64,000 nt of DNA from Draconibacterium sp. (GTDB lineage: Bacteria; Bacteroidota; Bacteroidia; Bacteroidales; Prolixibacteraceae): the NCBI GenBank assembly GCA_011620585.1, contig WOYV01000039.1, positions 1 to 64,000 of the forward strand. Reading direction: 5' to 3'. How positions within the stretch are numbered: the first letter of the stretch is position 1; each line of letters begins with the position of its first letter. Shown here one piece after another: positions 4,543-64,000 of this stretch. The translations under genes and the position numbers were made by a program. A model generated the notes under the pieces. It was not told the DNA's origin. It worked only from the letters and a program-made list of their open reading frames with translations, and ran no database searches.

Positions 4543-5140
4543 ATTCTTTTAACTGTTTATCTATTTTTATAATCTGCGGAATAATCAGATCGTGATCCGC
4601 ATTCCTGATTTCGATCGAAGCGAGTTTGCGTTTTTCTTCGTCGCTCCATTGTTTTTGCATTCGTTCCTTTATTTCAGTCAGCCGACTTCTATCCCGCTTT
4701 GTTACGCGTTGAATCCGCTCTTCTTCCGGGGCGCTCACCAGGATGGTAAAGTCCATCATTTTATAAAATCCGCTCTCGAATAAAATGGCTGCTTCGTGCA
4801 CTACGTACGGAACATTTTGTTCATCGGCCCACTTTAAAAATGCAGAACGTACAGCGGGATGAACCAGCTCGTTCACTTTTTGCAACTGAATTTCGTCATT
4901 GAAAATGAGAGCCGCAAGTTTTTTTCGGTCAACGCTTCCATTTGGGGTATAAACACCTTCACCAAAGCGTTCAACGAGTCCTTTCCTGATCTGGAGGTCA
5001 TTTTCCATAAGTTGCCTGGCTACAAGGTCGGCTTCAAAAACGGGCGCTCCTAAAATGCTGAACACTTTGCAAACGGTTGATTTTCCACTTCCGATTCCTC
5101 CGGTTATCCCAATTTTTAGTGTCATTTTAGTTGGTTTCAA
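4526..5140 (-). CDS. coaE: Dephospho-CoA kinase
   Basis: Catalyses the last step of coenzyme A synthesis, ATP-dependent 3'-phosphorylation of dephospho-CoA. It is 204 residues, a normal family length. The P-loop GGIGSGKST lies at residues 14-22, followed by the CoaE features [10 protein letters not shown], the VHPAVR motif and the lid region [23 protein letters not shown]. The start overlaps the end of the YbbR gene by 14 nt and the end overlaps the TerB/DnaJ gene, so the three genes form a compact minus-strand operon. A YbbR-coaE pair is common in Bacteroidota. Confidence 0.96.
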
Positions 5141-12182: not shown

Positions 12183-13328
12183 TTATTTCAATTTCGAGCG
12201 GTGTTGTTGTTCTCCTTCGGGTGCCCCCAAAAATGCATTGGCTACCAGGAAAACGGGCGTATCGTTTATCGCTGTTGAAAGGTTACAGGCCCAGGCAACC
12301 ACCACTTTTGATTCGGGTAATATTATTACGGAGGCTGACCCTCCCACCACACTTCCCTCTAAACCGTATACAGTTCTTCCGTAGGGATCCTTAAATACAA
12401 ACCATCCATTCACCATTCGCGAGGTGTTGTTATTAAACAGTATCAAAGGCTCGAATAAGTTTTTCCTGGTTTCTTCCGAGAAAAAATCTCCCGACAAGCA
12501 GGCATTTCCCAATTTAACAAGGTCTTCGGCATTCGACAACAGACCCTTCGAAGGAGCAGTGGCACGCAGATCGTAAAAAGTGGTATTCACAACCTGGGCC
12601 AGAATATTGGGTTCGTAAAAATTACTGCGGCCTTTGATCATGGCAAAAGGATTATCAATTACCGTGTTATCCATATGAAGCGTGTCGGTAACGTATTCTT
12701 TCAAAAGTTGGGAATATTTTTTACCGGTGGCTTTTTCCATCGCGACACCCAGTAAGTTATAGTTGTAACAACTTTGGGCCTGAAACATTCCGGGAGGCAT
12801 TTCCAGCGCCTCATCTTTAAAGAGTTGAATCCCGTCTTCAATTGATTTATTTACCAATCGCATTTCGCCGCCATCCAACGGCGGCTGGATTCCGGAAATT
12901 TCGTTGGCGAGCATTTTAAGGCTGATTTTCCCTTCAACTTTTACGGGGAATGTAGGTATGTAATGTTGAATTGATGAGTCGGGGTAGATTTTCCCTTCTT
13001 CAACCAGTTTCTGATAAAGGGCATTTGTGTAAAGCGTAGAAACTTCGCCAATACGAAATTTTGTGTTTCGCCTGGCAGGAGCATCCAAATCTCTCGAAGC
13101 AAGCCCAATACCTTCGGAATAAACCAATTCGCCGTTGATGGAAACTGCAATGTTGGCCCCGGGAATGAAATTCTGAATCATATGGAACTTGACTTTTTTC
13201 CTGGCGTCCTTAATTTCTTTGACATACTTTTTATTGTAAACAATGTCGGTCTTTGGCTTTTTGCAGCCATTCATCATAAGCAATACCGAAAATACCAGTG
13301 TTAATACAAAAAGGTTTTGTTTCATCAT
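12183..13328 (-). CDS. Beta-lactamase-fold (class C/LACTB-like) lipoprotein with degenerate active site
   Basis: 381 residues. Lipoprotein signal MMKQNLFVLTLVFSVLLMMNGC. The remainder aligns by eye with serine beta-lactamase-like hydrolases (IPGANIAVSINGELVYSEGIGLAS; YVTDTLHMDNT; LLSNAEDLVKLGNACLSG; GWFVFKDPYGRTVYG). The catalytic positions are changed. The S-x-x-K motif expected in FRIGSVSK is FRIGEVST (E95, T98). The expected catalytic Tyr aligns with Q185 in AQSCYNYNLLG. The H-[ST]-G motif is L323-E-G. The reading frame is intact and full length, so this looks like a retained pseudoenzyme (binding or scaffold role) rather than a decayed gene. It lies 105 nt downstream of a LytTR regulator on the same strand. 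Confidence 0.85.
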   Translation of the reverse strand: MMKQNLFVLTLVFSVLLMMNGCKKPKTDIVYNKKYVKEIKDARKKVKFHMIQNFIPGANIAVSINGELVYSEGIGLASRDLDAPARRNTKFRIGEVSTLYTNALYQKLVEEGKIYPDSSIQHYIPTFPVKVEGKISLKMLANEISGIQPPLDGGEMRLVNKSIEDGIQLFKDEALEMPPGMFQAQSCYNYNLLGVAMEKATGKKYSQLLKEYVTDTLHMDNTVIDNPFAMIKGRSNFYEPNILAQVVNTTFYDLRATAPSKGLLSNAEDLVKLGNACLSGDFFSEETRKNLFEPLILFNNNTSRMVNGWFVFKDPYGRTVYGLEGSVVGGSASVIILPESKVVVAWACNLSTAINDTPVFLVANAFLGAPEGEQQHRSKLK

Positions 13329-13433: not shown

Positions 13434-14174
13434 TTAGAGTATGTTTTTCTGATTGAGAAGGTTATAGAATGCAACTTTGTAGGTACTACTCACCGGAATG
13501 AGTTTGTCGCGTATTTTAATGGCGTTGTTTTCGATGTATTCGATTTTGTCGACCGCGATGATATACGATTTGTGAACTCTTGCAAATTTGGAGGGATCGA
13601 GCAGTTCCTGCATTTTTTTAAAGTTCAGCAGGGTCATAATTTTGCTGTCCTCGGTGTGGATTTGCAGGTAGTCGCGTTGTCCTTCGATATAAAGAATCTT
13701 ATTGAAATAAACTTTAATCGTTTTATTCCCTGATTTAATAAATGTGTAATCGGCCGGTTCAGTGGAAGTGCTTTGCGGACTCGCTACCTGTGCCACTTGT
13801 TTGTGATTTTGATCTTTCAGAAAACGGGCATACACTTTTTCAACAGCTTTTACAAAACGTTCGAAGGGGATAGGTTTTAATAAATAATCGACCACATCCA
13901 GTTCGTAGGCTTTTAGTGCGTATTCGTTGTAGGCAGTGGTCAGGATTACATATGGCGGATCTTTGATGGTTTCAAGAAGCTGTATTCCCGTAAACTCATC
14001 CATCTGGATGTCAAGAAATATGAGGTCAACCTTATGTTCGCGGAGAAATGAAAAAGTAGAAAGAGCATTGTCGAAGGTGCCCAAAAGATTCAGGTAATCG
14101 ATTTTTTCAGCAAAACGCTGGATCTTTTTCAGGGCCAGCACCTCATCATCAACGGCAATACAATTCATTTTCAT
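13434..14174 (-). CDS. LytTR-family response regulator
   Basis: 246 residues. A receiver domain (1-120) has the acidic pair at DD9-10, phospho-acceptor D55 in LIFLDIQM, and the conserved Thr and Lys (ILTTAYNEYALKAYELDVVDYLLKPI). A LytTR DNA-binding domain (about 140-246) contains KVYFNKILYIEGQRDYLQIHT and FARVHKSYIIAVDKI. Its start overlaps the stop of the upstream kinase by 4 nt (ATGA), so the two are translationally coupled and form a two-component pair. Targets are unknown; LytTR sites tend to be imperfect direct repeats and none was confidently located here. Confidence 0.95.
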   Translation of the reverse strand: MKMNCIAVDDEVLALKKIQRFAEKIDYLNLLGTFDNALSTFSFLREHKVDLIFLDIQMDEFTGIQLLETIKDPPYVILTTAYNEYALKAYELDVVDYLLKPIPFERFVKAVEKVYARFLKDQNHKQVAQVASPQSTSTEPADYTFIKSGNKTIKVYFNKILYIEGQRDYLQIHTEDSKIMTLLNFKKMQELLDPSKFARVHKSYIIAVDKIEYIENNAIKIRDKLIPVSSTYKVAFYNLLNQKNIL

Positions 14175-58662: not shown

Positions 58663-58939
58663 TGTAGCCATTCAGGTTTTGCCCGAAGCAGATGGAAAAC
58701 TGAAATATTCGCTGGTGGATGTTGCAATTGCTGCCATTCGCGATTCAGGGCACCGATACCAGGTTTGCCCTTTCGAAACGGTGGTAGAGTGCACTTACAA
58801 CGATCTTCCGGAATTGCTGAATAAAATTCACGAAGCGTGTTGTAAAGAGGGGACCGAAAAAATGTTGACCAATCTAAAGATACAGGTAGACTTTGCTAGC
58901 GATGTTACCATTGAAGACAAAATGGGAAAGTATACTTAA
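58637..58939 (+). CDS. MTH1187/YqgV-family thiamine-binding-like protein (DUF77)
   Basis: 100 residues, ferredoxin-like fold. Motifs of the family: INVAIQVLPEA, YSLVDVAIAAIRDSGHRYQVCPFETVVECTYNDLPELLNKIHEAC and LKIQVDFA. Homologues bind thiamine or a related pyrimidine; the physiological role is not settled. The 26-nt overlap with the preceding hypothetical gene suggests the two act together. Confidence 0.82.
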   Translation: MNWKTQKINVAIQVLPEADGKLKYSLVDVAIAAIRDSGHRYQVCPFETVVECTYNDLPELLNKIHEACCKEGTEKMLTNLKIQVDFASDVTIEDKMGKYT

Positions 58940-58948
58940 TTTAATTCG

Positions 58949-58983
58949 TTTGTTCGGATTTTTACAAATTAGTTATATATTTG
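58949..58983 (+). promoter_or_regulatory. tRNA-Arg promoter
   Basis: -33-like TTTG (58949-58952) and -7 TATATTTG (58976-58983), with a spacer of 23 nt (a little long). The tRNA begins 27 nt downstream. Confidence 0.5.
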
Positions 58984-59009
58984 CACCGCTTTTAAAGCAA
59001 AAACATACT

Positions 59010-59082
59010 GGCCCTGTAGCTTAATGGATAGAGCATCTGACTACGGATCAGAAGGTTGGGGGTTCGAGTCTCTCCAGGGTCA
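59010..59082 (+). tRNA. tRNA-Arg (anticodon ACG)
   Basis: A 73-nt cloverleaf. Acceptor ggccctg pairs with cagggtc (one G-U). The D arm has agcttaatggatagagc, the anticodon stem is tctga/tcaga with loop ctacgga (anticodon ACG, wobble A presumably edited to inosine), and the T arm carries ggttcgagtc. The discriminator is A. The 3' CCA is not fully encoded (CCT). The accessory ATPase/TOTE segment starts right after it, so its 3' end is a candidate integration site. Confidence 0.95.
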
Positions 59083-59094
59083 CCTTAAATTTAT

Positions 59095-59129
59095 AAAAGC
59101 CTCGTAATTATTGTTATTACGGGGCTTTT
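59095..59129 (+). terminator. Terminator of tRNA-Arg
   Basis: Stem aaaagcctcgtaat/attacggggctttt (one T-G pair) with a 7-nt loop, then TTTT. Confidence 0.85.
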
Positions 59130-59196
59130 GTGTGTTCGAACTAAAATCAAGGACATTTCAATAAAGACGTAATCAGTTTAAAAATAGATACTTACA

Positions 59197-59206
59197 GGTT
59201 CGAGTC
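59197..59206 (+). repeat. Second copy of the tRNA-Arg T-arm decamer (possible attachment-site scar)
   Basis: GGTTCGAGTC here repeats 59061-59070 of tRNA-Arg exactly, in the context caggttcgagtccc. No acceptor or anticodon arm accompanies it. It could be a remnant of an integrase crossover or of another tRNA gene. Ten bases alone is weak evidence. Confidence 0.35.
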
Positions 59207-59280
59207 CCATGAGGATTAATTTTAAATAATTCTGTTTATGCTGAAAAATGAGAATTAGTCTCAAATATTTTATGAAAATA

Positions 59281-60597
59281 TTACATGTCTTCCATGGAAA
59301 ATCCCATGTATTCCGCAGTATAATCTTTTAACTGAGACTGAAGCAGTTTTTTGGCCTTTTCCTGCAACACCGATATGCTGATATTTTCCTTTTTTCGCTT
59401 CACTTCTGCAAACAACACAACTTTGGTAAAATCGTCAACTGCTACAATATCCAGTTCATTTTGGTTCCCTTTCTCCCACCAGGTTCCGATTGCTGAATAC
59501 CGTTGAAGATTTACCAGCTTTTCCGTAAAAAACCGCTCCAGTATCTTTCCGCTGTACGTCGGGTAATCGCGCTCTACAATACTACGCAGATACCCGAAGT
59601 TTCCTATCTCAACTGCACTCTGGTATTTATAAATAAAACGGAACCAAAAATTCAGGAAATTGTCTACAATCTCATATTTGATATTTCGTCCTCCCGGCTT
59701 GGCAAACATTGGCCGTACTTTTCGGATTAAGTTGAAATCATTTTCCATCCTTTCCAGATACCCTCCAATGCTTACTCCAAGAATTGATTCAATTTCAGAA
59801 CGGGATGTCTTGGACGATGCAATAAGTGACAGAATTGAAAAATAGGTTGCATAGTCCTTCCCGAATTCTTCAATCAGGACATTGCGTCCCTCGTCAATAA
59901 ACAATGAATTTTCCCGGAAGACTTCGTCCAACATTTTACTGAGTGTAAATGCTTTTTTGCTTATCAAAAGTTCCACATATTTGGCAACCCCTCCGGTCAA
60001 TACGTAAAACGCCAATAAATCCTCAGGTGTATATTCCGGATAATTGTCAGCCAATATCTCTTTAAGGGTATCCACATGGAACGGTTTCAGGTGAATACGT
60101 TCAGTTGCCCTGGCAAAAAGTGGTTCCTTTGAATTTTCGAATATATTCTTCATCAGTGAGTAAACTGATCCGCAGACAATTAGGTTGATTCTGCTCCGCT
60201 CCTTATAACTGTCCCAGATATTTTGCATTTCACTGTAAACGGATGGATTGACATTATTGAACTCCTGGAACTCATCAATAATCAGCGAAAAGATTCTCGT
60301 TGCAGATAAATCCATCAGATATTGGAACAAGTCTTTAAACTGTGTAAACGAACCAAACAGCTTAACCTGCAACTTGCGTTCAATCTCTTCCTTAAATTCT
60401 TCACAAATCAGAACTTCATTTTTGCGGGTCACAAACAAATAAAGAGCTGTATCTTCATTCTCAACAGCTTTCTTTAAAAGACTTGTCTTTCCAATACGCC
60501 GGCGTCCTACAACCACCGTCATTTGCGCCTCTGTTTTCGTACGTTCTTTAATTGATTTTAAAAACGCCAATTCTTTTTCTCTGTTATAGAATTTCAT
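59281..60597 (-). CDS. Archaeal-family AAA ATPase with C-terminal DUF234 nuclease-like domain
   Basis: 438 residues. The STAND-like ATPase domain (about 1-230) has Walker A G31-RRRIGKT38, Walker B SLIIDEFQEF (D108-E109), sensor NLIVCGSVYSLM and the ERIHLKPF motif typical of the archaeal ATPase family. A winged helix follows (about 250-310: SRSEIESILGVSIGGYLERMENDFNLI). The C-terminal DUF234 region (about 320-438; KYEIVDNFLNFWFRFIYKYQS) ends with a D-x(n)-E-x-K pattern, NELDIVAVDDFTKVVLFAEVKRKK, as in PD-(D/E)XK enzymes. These ATPases are frequent in mobile and accessory regions and their function is not settled. It lies between tRNA-Arg and the divergent TOTE-type gene, 278 nt from it. Confidence 0.9.
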   Translation of the reverse strand: MKFYNREKELAFLKSIKERTKTEAQMTVVVGRRRIGKTSLLKKAVENEDTALYLFVTRKNEVLICEEFKEEIERKLQVKLFGSFTQFKDLFQYLMDLSATRIFSLIIDEFQEFNNVNPSVYSEMQNIWDSYKERSRINLIVCGSVYSLMKNIFENSKEPLFARATERIHLKPFHVDTLKEILADNYPEYTPEDLLAFYVLTGGVAKYVELLISKKAFTLSKMLDEVFRENSLFIDEGRNVLIEEFGKDYATYFSILSLIASSKTSRSEIESILGVSIGGYLERMENDFNLIRKVRPMFAKPGGRNIKYEIVDNFLNFWFRFIYKYQSAVEIGNFGYLRSIVERDYPTYSGKILERFFTEKLVNLQRYSAIGTWWEKGNQNELDIVAVDDFTKVVLFAEVKRKKENISISVLQEKAKKLLQSQLKDYTAEYMGFSMEDM

Positions 60598-60875
60598 TAT
60601 CTACTACTTTAATTGTAATGCTCATTACTGTAACCGTCATTGCGATAATACAAATATATGTAGTTTCTTTTAAATACAGAATTGTTGGTTTAACTATTTT
60701 GGCAAACTTGTACCCTTAGTACTTTTCTGCCAATGAAATTAAACCAGTTGCTTAAAAAGTTGCCCTTCGTAATCCCTGTTCCTTTCATCATGGGTGATAG
60801 ACAACGGCGTATCTTACTAAATTGCAACAATTGGTATAAAACGATAGTTATTCAAATGAAGGAAACGCGTAAAAA

Positions 60876-63821
60876 ATGGATTTTAAAGCCCTGAAAGAAA
60901 AATACCAGCAATTGCTTCTTGAAAACAACCGCCTGAGAGAAGAAATAAAAAGGCTGAAGACTCAGCTTGGTGGGGACGCAAGACATGAAGAGTTACAGGG
61001 TTCAGACAGCAAAGTTTCTGAATATCTTGCAGCACCAGAGCCGGAATTATTTGATCGGCAAACGGAAACCAAACCGTCAACACCTTCTGAAGTTCTAAAT
61101 AAACGATCTGATGCCAGCGCAAAAATTAGACTCTTCCGATCGCTGTTCAGGGGAAGAGACGAGGTGTATGCCAAAAGATGGGAAAACAAGGCAAAAGGGA
61201 CTTCCGGCTATTCACCTGCCTGTGGTAATGAATGGAAACCAGGCATTTGCCAGAAGCCAAAAATAAAATGTTCAGCATGTAAACATCAGGATTTTCTTCC
61301 TTTGGATGAAATGGCTATTGACACGCATTTACGTGGTAGGCAAAATCTTGTTGCCGGACTCTATCCTTTGCTATCCAATGAAACCTGCTGGTTTCTGGCA
61401 ATTGACTTCGACGATGAAGGATGGCAAAAAGATGTAACGACACTCAGGGAGATATGCACCGAATTTGAGATTCCTATTGCTGTTGAAAGGTCACGGTCGG
61501 GAAATGGAGCCCATGCATGGTTTTTCTTTGAGGACCCTGTACAGGCTTCTTTAGCCCGAAAATTTGGAAGTGCCCTGCTAACCTACGCCATGAGCAAACG
61601 TCACGAACTCACGTTTAAATCTTATGATCGTTTCTTCCCGAACCAGGATACGATGCCAAAAGGTGGTTTTGGTAATTTAATAGCGCTACCTCTGCAAAAA
61701 ACAGCAAGAAGAGATAACAACAGCGTTTTTATTGATGAGTATTTTCACCCAATAGAAGATCAATGGGCTTTTCTTTCATCCATTCAAAGGCTTTCCGAAA
61801 AGAATCTGGAAGAACTAACATCAAAGTTGTCCCCGGGGAATGAGCTTGGAACACTGAAAACAGACGATGAGGAAGCACCCAAACCCTGGGAAAGCACAAA
61901 AAAGACGGAGGTCAGCAAAAATGATTTCCCCAGGGAAATAGAAGTTGTAAAAGCCAATATGTTGTTTATTTCCAAATCCGGATTTTCTCAAAGAGCATTG
62001 AATCACCTGAAACGTCTGGCTGCTTTTAAAAATCCTGAATTTTACAAAGCCCAGGCCATGCGCCTACCGACGTTTGATAAACCCAGAATTATATCTTGTT
62101 CGGATGAAACACCCGAATACCTGTGCTTACCAAGGGGATGTGAAACGGATATAAAATTGCTGTTCGGGGAAATGGAAACGACAGTGTTGTGGATCGATAA
62201 AACCAATCACGGCAGAAAGATAAATGTTGTGTTTAATGGGGAATTGAGGGATGAACAACCTTTGGCTGTTGGAAAACTACTGGAAAATGATAACGGAATC
62301 TTGTGCGGAACAACGGCTTTTGGGAAAACAGTCGCAGCAATAAAACTGATCGCCGAAAGAAAGGTCAACACCCTGATCCTTGTTGACAAGGTTAGCCTGG
62401 TATCGCAGTGGAAGGAAAAACTTTCAGCCTTTCTGACAATCAATGAGCCATTCCCGCTTACCGACACTCCCGGAGCCAGAAAAAGAGGAAAAAATAAAAG
62501 CATTATCGGACAAATGGGAGGTGGAAAACAAGCGTTGAGCGGCGTCATTGATATTGCTGTCATGCAATCGCTCAACAGGATGGGAGAAGTAAAGGAATGT
62601 GTGAAAGATTATGGCATGGTCATCGTTGACGAGTGCCATCATGTTTCTGCTTTCAGTTTTGAAATGATATTGAAAAATGTGAACGCTAAATATGTTTACG
62701 GGTTAACAGCTACTCCGACCAGGAAAGATGGACACCATCCCATTATTTTTATGCAATGTGGCCCAATCCGATACCGGGACGATGCAAAAAAACAAGCGGA
62801 GAAAAGACCTTTCGACCACTTTGTCATACCCCGGTTCACTTCTTTCAATACACCGTTGGATAAGGAAGAGAAAGATATCCCCATTCATGAATTGTACGCT
62901 GGGATCGTCGAAAATGAAATGAGAAATCAGTTGATCATTGATGACGTGGTACAATGTCATAAAAATGGCAGAAATTGCCTGGTTTTGACAGAAAGGACAA
63001 CTCACGTTGAATCACTTGCCAGCGAACTCAGCAAAAGGATTCCGGATGTCATCTTACTCATGGGTGGAATGGGGACAAAGGAAACCAGGGAAACCAGAAC
63101 CCGGATTTCAGAAACCCCGGAAAACAAACCGCTGACTTTAGTTGCAACGGGGCGCTATATTGGCGAAGGCTTTGATGAACCAAGGCTTGACACCCTGTTC
63201 CTGGCGATGCCCATTTCATGGAAAGGAACTTTACAACAATATGCAGGGAGACTTCACCGACTGTTTGAAACGAAAAAGGAAGTGCTGATTTATGACTATG
63301 TAGATGTCCGGGTACGAATGCTTGAAAGGATGTACAATAAACGGCTTGCCGGATATGCGTCTATTGGCTATAGGGCAAAAGGGGAAAATATTGCGGCAGA
63401 ATCTACGGATATCATTTTTGATAAAAGCAATTTTTTACCGATATATTCTAATGATATTGTCAATGCTTCCAGGGAGATAATAATTGTAAGCCCGTTTGTT
63501 ACAAAACGGCGTACTTTACAGATGATACAAAATCTTAGGATTGCTCTCAAAAACGGCGTAAAAGTAATTGTAGTGACCAGACCATCTGAAGATTTTAAAG
63601 ACAAGGATTTGACTTCCTGGCAAACGACAATTGAATTGATAAAAAGTTCAGGTATTGCTTTAGTCTTTAAATCAAATATCCATCAAAAGTTTGCCGTTGT
63701 TGACCAAAAAGTTTCTTGGTATGGAAGCATCAACCTGCTAAGTTATGGTAACGCCGAAGAAAGTATCATGCGGATAGAAAGTTCGAATATCGCCAATGAG
63801 TTAATCAGGAGTATTATTTAG
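60876..63821 (+). CDS. TOTE-type conflict-system protein: primase, SF2 helicase and PLD nuclease in one chain
   Basis: 981 residues. The coiled-coil N-terminus (about 1-32; KYQQLLLENNRLREEIKRLK) is typical of TOTE proteins. A zinc knuckle has C116, C125, C132 and C135. An archaeo-eukaryotic primase domain (about 85-290) has D177-F-D179 in FLAIDFDD, H213 in RSGNGAHAWFFF and SYDRFFPNQDTMPKGGFGNLI. The SF2 helicase (about 455-810) has Walker A G478-TTAFGKT, box II D585-ECH, LTATPTRKDG, RYIGEGFDEPRLDTL and QQYAGRLHR. A single-HKD phospholipase-D nuclease domain (about 850-981) has H936-Q-K938, D943 and GSINLLSYG. All catalytic positions I can check are intact. A predicted anti-invader or element-encoded system combining priming, unwinding and DNA cleavage; the biological target is inferred. 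Confidence 0.9.
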   Translation: MDFKALKEKYQQLLLENNRLREEIKRLKTQLGGDARHEELQGSDSKVSEYLAAPEPELFDRQTETKPSTPSEVLNKRSDASAKIRLFRSLFRGRDEVYAKRWENKAKGTSGYSPACGNEWKPGICQKPKIKCSACKHQDFLPLDEMAIDTHLRGRQNLVAGLYPLLSNETCWFLAIDFDDEGWQKDVTTLREICTEFEIPIAVERSRSGNGAHAWFFFEDPVQASLARKFGSALLTYAMSKRHELTFKSYDRFFPNQDTMPKGGFGNLIALPLQKTARRDNNSVFIDEYFHPIEDQWAFLSSIQRLSEKNLEELTSKLSPGNELGTLKTDDEEAPKPWESTKKTEVSKNDFPREIEVVKANMLFISKSGFSQRALNHLKRLAAFKNPEFYKAQAMRLPTFDKPRIISCSDETPEYLCLPRGCETDIKLLFGEMETTVLWIDKTNHGRKINVVFNGELRDEQPLAVGKLLENDNGILCGTTAFGKTVAAIKLIAERKVNTLILVDKVSLVSQWKEKLSAFLTINEPFPLTDTPGARKRGKNKSIIGQMGGGKQALSGVIDIAVMQSLNRMGEVKECVKDYGMVIVDECHHVSAFSFEMILKNVNAKYVYGLTATPTRKDGHHPIIFMQCGPIRYRDDAKKQAEKRPFDHFVIPRFTSFNTPLDKEEKDIPIHELYAGIVENEMRNQLIIDDVVQCHKNGRNCLVLTERTTHVESLASELSKRIPDVILLMGGMGTKETRETRTRISETPENKPLTLVATGRYIGEGFDEPRLDTLFLAMPISWKGTLQQYAGRLHRLFETKKEVLIYDYVDVRVRMLERMYNKRLAGYASIGYRAKGENIAAESTDIIFDKSNFLPIYSNDIVNASREIIIVSPFVTKRRTLQMIQNLRIALKNGVKVIVVTRPSEDFKDKDLTSWQTTIELIKSSGIALVFKSNIHQKFAVVDQKVSWYGSINLLSYGNAEESIMRIESSNIANELIRSII

Positions 63822-63835
63822 GGTCTGCTGATTTT

Positions 63836-63970
63836 CTATGCGACACACGAGTTAGATATTGGTATACACAATCTTTCATCCTTGTATTTCGGAATAAAAA
63901 TCTTTCCACAATAAAGTGGGTTTCCAAATCCCCTTCATGCAAAGCTTTTTAATAGGCGCTGGCAACTTTA
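63836..63970 (-). pseudogene. Serine site-specific recombinase remnant
   Basis: In one minus-strand frame ending at the stop 63836-63838, residues NPLYCGKIFIPKYKDE (63875-63922) match the conserved start of the recombinase zinc-beta-ribbon region of large serine recombinases (N-P-x-Y-x-G-K-I-x-I-P-x-Y-K-D-E). It is preceded by QRLLKSFA, with an in-frame stop (63935-63937) between. The frame ends soon after, so only debris remains. No resolvase catalytic domain is in the window; more could lie past the right edge. It supports a mobile origin for the TOTE segment. Confidence 0.45.
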
Positions 63971-64000
63971 TACGTGTATTCCCTCGATCTTCAGGCCGAA

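Follow-up and report, generated by a model that had tools for sequence, protein, structure and literature searches.

TOTE is, in the accessible part of its description, a multi-gene system of TPR, OB, TBP and Effector (PMC12458937). Pfam and RefSeq attach the TOTE label to the archaeo-eukaryotic primase (AEP) domain and its proteins, and the RefSeq name "TOTE conflict system archaeo-eukaryotic primase domain-containing protein" is borne by E. coli relatives of the protein described here. The CRISPR-associated primase-polymerase CAPP (7nqd) is, to our knowledge, without a comparable motor or nuclease. The ATP-dependent restriction enzyme SauUSI (7clg) has a PLD nuclease and an SF2 motor on one chain, and also carries a modified-cytosine reader.

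The window, a stretch of 64,000 nucleotides at the start of contig WOYV01000039.1 of Draconibacterium sp., contains a gene that the initial annotation, made from the sequence alone, had called a complete single-chain TOTE-type primase-helicase-nuclease. Its product is a new member of a known family. The most probable reading, to which we give a probability of about one half from comparisons of sequence and predicted structure, is that this is a solitary, horizontally spread accessory gene for a putative ATP-dependent DNA-attack enzyme. A literature search, largely outside subscription journals, found no experiment on such a protein.

Domains and conservation of the window protein

The single intact frame is borne out by translation, with 981 residues, a stop and zero internal stops, and the ORF is real (Table 1). 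The profile matches agree with the proposed domains: AEP-TOTE (PF22548) is far above its cut-off (345 bits against 27, E 2.7e-103), ResIII covers residues 456-616 (E 2.9e-18) and PLDc_2 is matched at E 1.8e-12, Helicase_C alone being under its cut-off (20.3 bits, 23.5 required). Profiles and predicted folds together give a CAPP-like AEP domain, although at 97.5 bits the protein is well short of the NCBIfam equivalog cut-off of 200 for CAPP itself, and a single HKD domain of the NucT/SauUSI type. The motifs named in the initial annotation, namely D177-x-D179 and H213 of the primase, GTTAFGKT, DECH and QQYAGRLHR of the helicase, and the one HKD nuclease motif, are all present at the residues given. 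The leading coiled coil is likewise upheld, as one helix in the model and by a leucine/ENxxL pattern retained in homologs.

The initial annotation was right in placing AEP, SF2 and a single HKD on one chain, but it overlooked an XPB/UvsW-type N-terminal domain. By fold comparison residues 352-836 match the XPB/UvsW helicase fold with this domain included, and the closest helicase folds are those of repair and recombination helicases; a family missing from the matches of these structure searches is not thereby excluded.

Conservation was assessed in 52 full-length homologs, 43-84% identical to the window protein. D177, H213, K484 and DECH are found in all 52, as are D251 and D258, which had not been pointed out before, and D179 is altered only in L034 (51/52). 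In motif III, T611 is replaced by Ser in five. The four-Cys knuckle is kept almost throughout (C116, C125 and C135 in 52, C132 in 51) and may hold zinc. In the nuclease, D943 is present in 52/52, H936 in 50 and K938 in 48, with the H or K altered in five homologs (L027, L028, L090, L094, L103). With the unvaried residues of the AEP domain and motor set against these losses, primase and motor are the most firmly conserved parts, and the nuclease ranks a little below them. Indeed, the decay of the HKD motif in 5/52, together with the sister clades that have no nuclease, would suggest that cutting is not what selection keeps most.

Table 1. Features of the window gene, its surroundings and related loci. 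Positions are those of the window unless a locus is named.
Feature	Position	Strand	Basis or remark
tRNA-Arg(acg)	59010..59084	+	end of gene order common to relatives
AAA ATPase-DUF234 gene	59281..60597	-	PADLOC candidate PDC-S27
AEP primase - SF2 helicase - PLD nuclease gene, 981 aa	60876..63821	+	translation, Pfam, genome search
N-terminal helix, coiled-coil-like, residues 3-30	60882..60965	+	single helix in model, pLDDT 74-89
AEP domain, residues 83-313, with D177, D179, H213	61122..61814	+	Pfam, fold match, conservation
Four-Cys knuckle within AEP region, C116/C125/C132/C135	61221..61280	+	conservation in 52 homologs
XPB/UvsW-type N-terminal domain, residues about 352-450	61929..62225	+	fold alignments begin at 352-359
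SF2 helicase core, residues 456-811, K484, DECH 585-588	62241..63308	+	Pfam, conservation, fold
PLD nuclease domain, residues 860-978, H936/K938/D943	63453..63809	+	Pfam, conservation, fold
Four-gene element	L116:7608-13901; L167:7725-14018; L117:7723-14016
Four-gene element	L158:5813-12091; L162:5742-12081
Four-gene element	L168 + L169:7729-14017; L170 + L171:7729-14018
Four-gene element	L172:7722-14063; L173:3622-9961
Direct repeats	L059:232-277 + 4851-4896		46 nt at 100%
Direct repeats	L061:8717-8817 + 14029-14129
Direct repeats	L081:7827-8094 + 13006-13273

The description "complete single-chain TOTE" is not supported. The name fits to the extent that the AEP domain bears the Pfam and RefSeq label, and the effector nuclease of TOTE has a counterpart in the fused PLD domain. 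TBP (PF00352), however, was found in none of 49 bacterial genomes, that of the window included, with completeness known for 5 of the 50 genomes searched; the fiftieth, an archaeon, has one TBP, and the control search was positive in 4/14 genomes, all archaea. No TPR, OB/CSD (cold-shock) or TBP match at E 1e-3, and no cas family, was seen in the ten flanking proteins scanned, a set to which the ORF just downstream does not belong. "Complete" is misleading because the nuclease marks one clade, while the proteins of sister clades stop just past the helicase. This qualifies a name that is spreading in public annotation: a "TOTE conflict system" protein need not belong to a TOTE system.

Setting and spread of the gene

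To the left of the gene lie the AAA ATPase-DUF234 gene, tRNA-Arg(acg), a thiamine-binding protein gene, a 271-aa gene and feoB; the AAA ATPase-DUF234 neighbour is at most a possible partner of the window gene. Of the 24 relatives in the genus that have the 271-aa gene, 12 were compared in gene order. This gene is followed by tRNA-Arg in all 12, a 100-aa gene is present in 11/12, and feoB is present in all 10 stretches long enough to reach it. To the right of tRNA-Arg in the relatives, where about 8-11 kb was compared, there is no match at E 1e-10 to genes at 55-95 kb of the window contig. The methylase gene of the right flank has a strong match in only two of the 24 (G003, G015), and in the search for an empty site that match was not on the stretch carrying the left-flank gene, so that the left break alone can be demonstrated. 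About 110 nt past the tRNA-Arg, the sequence at 59195-59214 looks by eye like the T-arm of a tRNA and may have been left by an earlier integration. In 58900-64000 the tRNA is the only Rfam match at gathering thresholds.

Two other designs for the locus were considered and rejected. A retron-like arrangement with conserved flanking RNA or DNA fails in that 54 upstream and 75 downstream flanks gave pairwise matches only, none of them family-wide. Nor is the gene its own repeat-bounded element, since no inverted or direct repeat was found flanking the window copy.

This is the sole full copy in its 3.94-Mb genome (99.73% complete). The same genome has a 29-residue remnant (L002:1501-1587, G000:C106), 66% identical to residues 379-407 of the protein, which adjoins what by eye appears to be the end of an IS630-type transposase. 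Among 61 genomes compared (its own, 36 of the genus and 24 of the order), the full-length form is present in five and AEP plus helicase without a PLD match in line in six, making 11/61 with a primase-bearing form of any kind; a further 11 have weak partial matches only, mainly to the helicase. The AEP-TOTE domain was detected in 24/296 genomes of a phylum sample, as against 1/14 control genomes.

A scan of species genomes found 130 relatives, 80 of which were kept, in records labelled as Bacteroidota, Clostridia, delta-proteobacteria, Margulisbacteria and others, a single one being labelled Thermoplasmata. Homologs 66-71% identical occur in records labelled Clostridia and delta-proteobacterium, mainly MAGs; most relatives being from MAGs, individual placements may be binning errors, but the 69% identical homolog of the isolate Anaerovirgula multivorans is among the firmer cross-phylum records. 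The reading frame is split in two in at least eight of the 80 loci (L058, L075, L077, L084, L092, L098, L101, L108), through decay or sequencing error. At two loci a second partial frame a few kb from a relative (L072:6325-6795, L089:7154-7735) matches the N-terminal 149-179 residues at 35-39% identity. The gene is thus solitary, patchy in its occurrence and found across phyla.

In a midpoint-rooted tree of 90 proteins made by a quick method, the 52 PLD-bearing rows fall on one side of a branch with support of 94, which suggests a single gain of the nuclease, or a single loss under a different root. Another branch (support 100) holds 11 short rows that have neither the coiled coil nor the Cys knuckle. 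The E. coli relative also ends after the helicase, and at least 80% of an E. coli relative is covered in 681 of 5,426 complete E. coli genomes. The chromosomal surroundings of one copy (L175:12001-14361) include an integrase, several insertion sequences and, at a greater distance, urease genes.

Relatives in phage records were also followed. A phage gene as such is rejected, as 1,135 phage records match but none over more than 80% of the gene, the best 30 matching the helicase part alone. A first scan of IMG/VR found no relatives; in an alignment-based scan 9 of 80 kept loci extend into the AEP domain, three of them through the PLD domain, and of these nine the ORFs were examined in five and neighbour profiles in four.

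Company of the relatives and their mobile elements

The neighbours of homologs vary between loci, with accessory and defence-type genes over-represented. Among 137 immediate neighbours, Pfam gives AAA_14 (10), DUF4143 (8), Fic (8), SNF2 (6), HATPase_c_4 (6), SLFN_AlbA_2 (4), DUF1016_N (3) and AbiEi_4 (3), each found at most once in a control set of 137 genes lying 4.5 kb or more away; related loci are counted repeatedly in both sets. PADLOC assigns eight PDC-S01 and seven SoFic near the homologs, with at most two of each among the controls, where type I methylase (3), specificity subunit (2) and mads proteins (2-3 of 137) were seen. Housekeeping genes are present too (Epimerase 3, Aminotran_1_2 2). 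SNF2-cluster genes lie within 60 nt in L032, L057, L093, L097 and L105 (profiled in L032). In L083, L087 and L088 a RecQ-like gene follows at a distance of 0-1 nt (profiled in L087). On a contig of the viral collection (L181:232-10265) a run of methylase-specificity, AAA_5 and McrC genes ends in a nuclease-less AEP-helicase gene that overlaps McrC by 4 nt, which is a candidate defence operon, and in L165 a nuclease-less relative is 1.5 kb ahead of a type I R-M cluster.

A tRNA hotspot for the PLD clade as a whole is a tentative reading: there are 12 tRNAs in the 332 kb within 2.5 kb and five in the 665 kb beyond, in 10/83 loci, several of them close kin. Direct repeats flank the gene in 13/83 and might mark the mode of insertion of solitary PLD-clade genes.

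Known RITs (recombinase in trio), in the accessible parts of their descriptions, are about 3.5 kb long, with three genes and 28-34 bp repeats (PMC3414803, PMC10214605). Plasmid regions with nuclease-less relatives, 21 in all, were chosen non-randomly, best matches first and then four strains with two copies. Of the 17 alphaproteobacterial regions 13 have a tyrosine-recombinase trio adjoining the gene; there is none in L155, L156, L157 and L161, nor in the four regions from other classes. In 11 plasmid records from seven organisms the nuclease-less AEP-helicase gene and the three recombinase genes form an element of about 6.3 kb bounded by inverted repeats of 95-181 bp that are 86-100% alike, while in L159 and L160 the trio is oriented differently and the repeats are weaker or nested. 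As in a RIT, three adjacent tyrosine-recombinase genes lie between inverted repeats, but this element is larger, with longer repeats and a fourth gene, and it belongs to the plasmid relatives and not to the window copy.

Paired copies in one strain are identical or nearly so (6,292 bp at 100%, 6,291 bp at 100%, 6,292 bp at 99.98% and 6,341 bp at 99.98%), with aligned flanks that are 81-92% alike and inverted, except for a 3.8-kb Sagittula stretch at 100% that carries a second trio with 33-bp repeats. In 10/13 the element splits a strawberry-notch gene at codons 829-831, in both orientations, and in the other three it is outside this gene. With its defined bounds, near-identical copies and fixed target, this element makes the question of cargo or machinery directly testable.

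Other relatives follow Tn7-like genes, the end of a Tn7-like run being a frequent place of target selectors. In Sphingobium pTB1 (L157:2152-10421) a 226-aa ORF, a 705-aa ORF, tniB and tniQ precede the AEP-helicase gene, which has a 4-nt overlap; TniQ is backed by a profile match, and the 705-aa ORF, annotated as hypothetical, is by eye TnsB. In S. meliloti pMl1 a nuclease-less relative comes after tniQ. One PLD-bearing relative (L178:924-16319, 42% identical) has three integrase genes nearby, the first at a distance of about 0.5 kb, and the same stretch carries a MobA-type relaxase gene. The sole RIT-like trio among the 83 PLD-clade loci (L034:3535-8056) has 34-bp inverted repeats and is 1.1 kb downstream of a PLD-bearing relative, which is outside the repeats; by eye an AbiEi-like gene precedes this trio. 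A limited literature search found no paper linking AEP-helicases to RITs or Tn7-like systems.

Possible roles and comparison with known systems

The computational results establish the domains and folds, the conservation of the active sites, the solitary setting, the patchy spread across phyla and the company of accessory genes; the family is a mobile one and probably acts on foreign DNA. Points against the DNA-attack reading are the change of neighbours between loci with housekeeping genes among them, the defence parts present in the control set, the decay or lack of the nuclease in relatives, and the mobile elements into which close kin are built. The overall design would be that of a SauUSI-like SF2-PLD restriction enzyme with an added AEP module. 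The coiled coil would join two chains into a dimer, and the XPB/UvsW-type motor would engage DNA that is branched or opened and remodel it. The AEP domain with the Cys knuckle would bind or extend a primer or an exposed 3' end, serving either as a sensor or to make the substrate, and the two HKD half-sites of the dimer would then cut the DNA. Action on invading DNA is plausible, and its effect would be protective.

The main rival is also allowed by the contexts of the relatives: the family may serve mobile DNA instead of fighting it, with the AEP-SF2 core aiding replication, target choice or maintenance, and the window copy a stranded or domesticated remnant. The four-gene element, the relatives after tniB-tniQ and tniQ, the integrases and relaxase gene of L178 and the stop of the common gene order at the tRNA-Arg beside the window gene all favour it. 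Against this, the window copy lacks flanking repeats, the 20 kb around it contains no RIT-like recombinase, a trio is seen at only one of 83 PLD-clade loci, with the gene outside its repeats, and the element-linked rows are on a separate branch of the tree. We consider this role possible, and clearly less probable than DNA attack. Somewhat more doubtful is a reading in which AEP-SF2 proteins would be the primase-helicase for replicative moves of the recombinase trio to a fixed site (strawberry-notch) and, separately, for Tn7-like TniQ, the window clade being an offshoot that gained a nuclease and turned on competing DNA.

An accessory enzyme of DNA repair or fork restart, in which the motor and AEP domain would act on blocked forks, by restart or bypass, and the PLD domain would trim ends, would accord with the nearest helicase folds and with the RecQ-like genes just downstream at three loci, but is unlikely for a gene missing from most relatives (full-length in 5/61, any primase-bearing form in 11/61), split in at least 8/80 loci and accompanied by accessory genes. 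The membership of the AEP domain in Pfam AEP-TOTE points to a true TOTE system with TPR and OB partners elsewhere in the genome; with no TBP in that genome and no partner among the ten flanking proteins, this is very improbable.

For the preferred reading of a DNA-attack enzyme, the window gene offers a compact one-gene test of the possible use of a primase domain in defence. Fusion to AEP and PLD domains sets the protein apart from the XPB and UvsW helicases, whose fold it shares. Hna and Hachiman also couple a helicase to a nuclease, and the accessible parts of their descriptions, by which alone they were compared, mention no AEP domain. SauUSI, both parts of which are matched in fold, has the reverse domain order, with its PLD at residues 2-172, and the Pfam scan of the window protein found no modified-cytosine reader domain; where SauUSI has another module, the window protein has its AEP domain.
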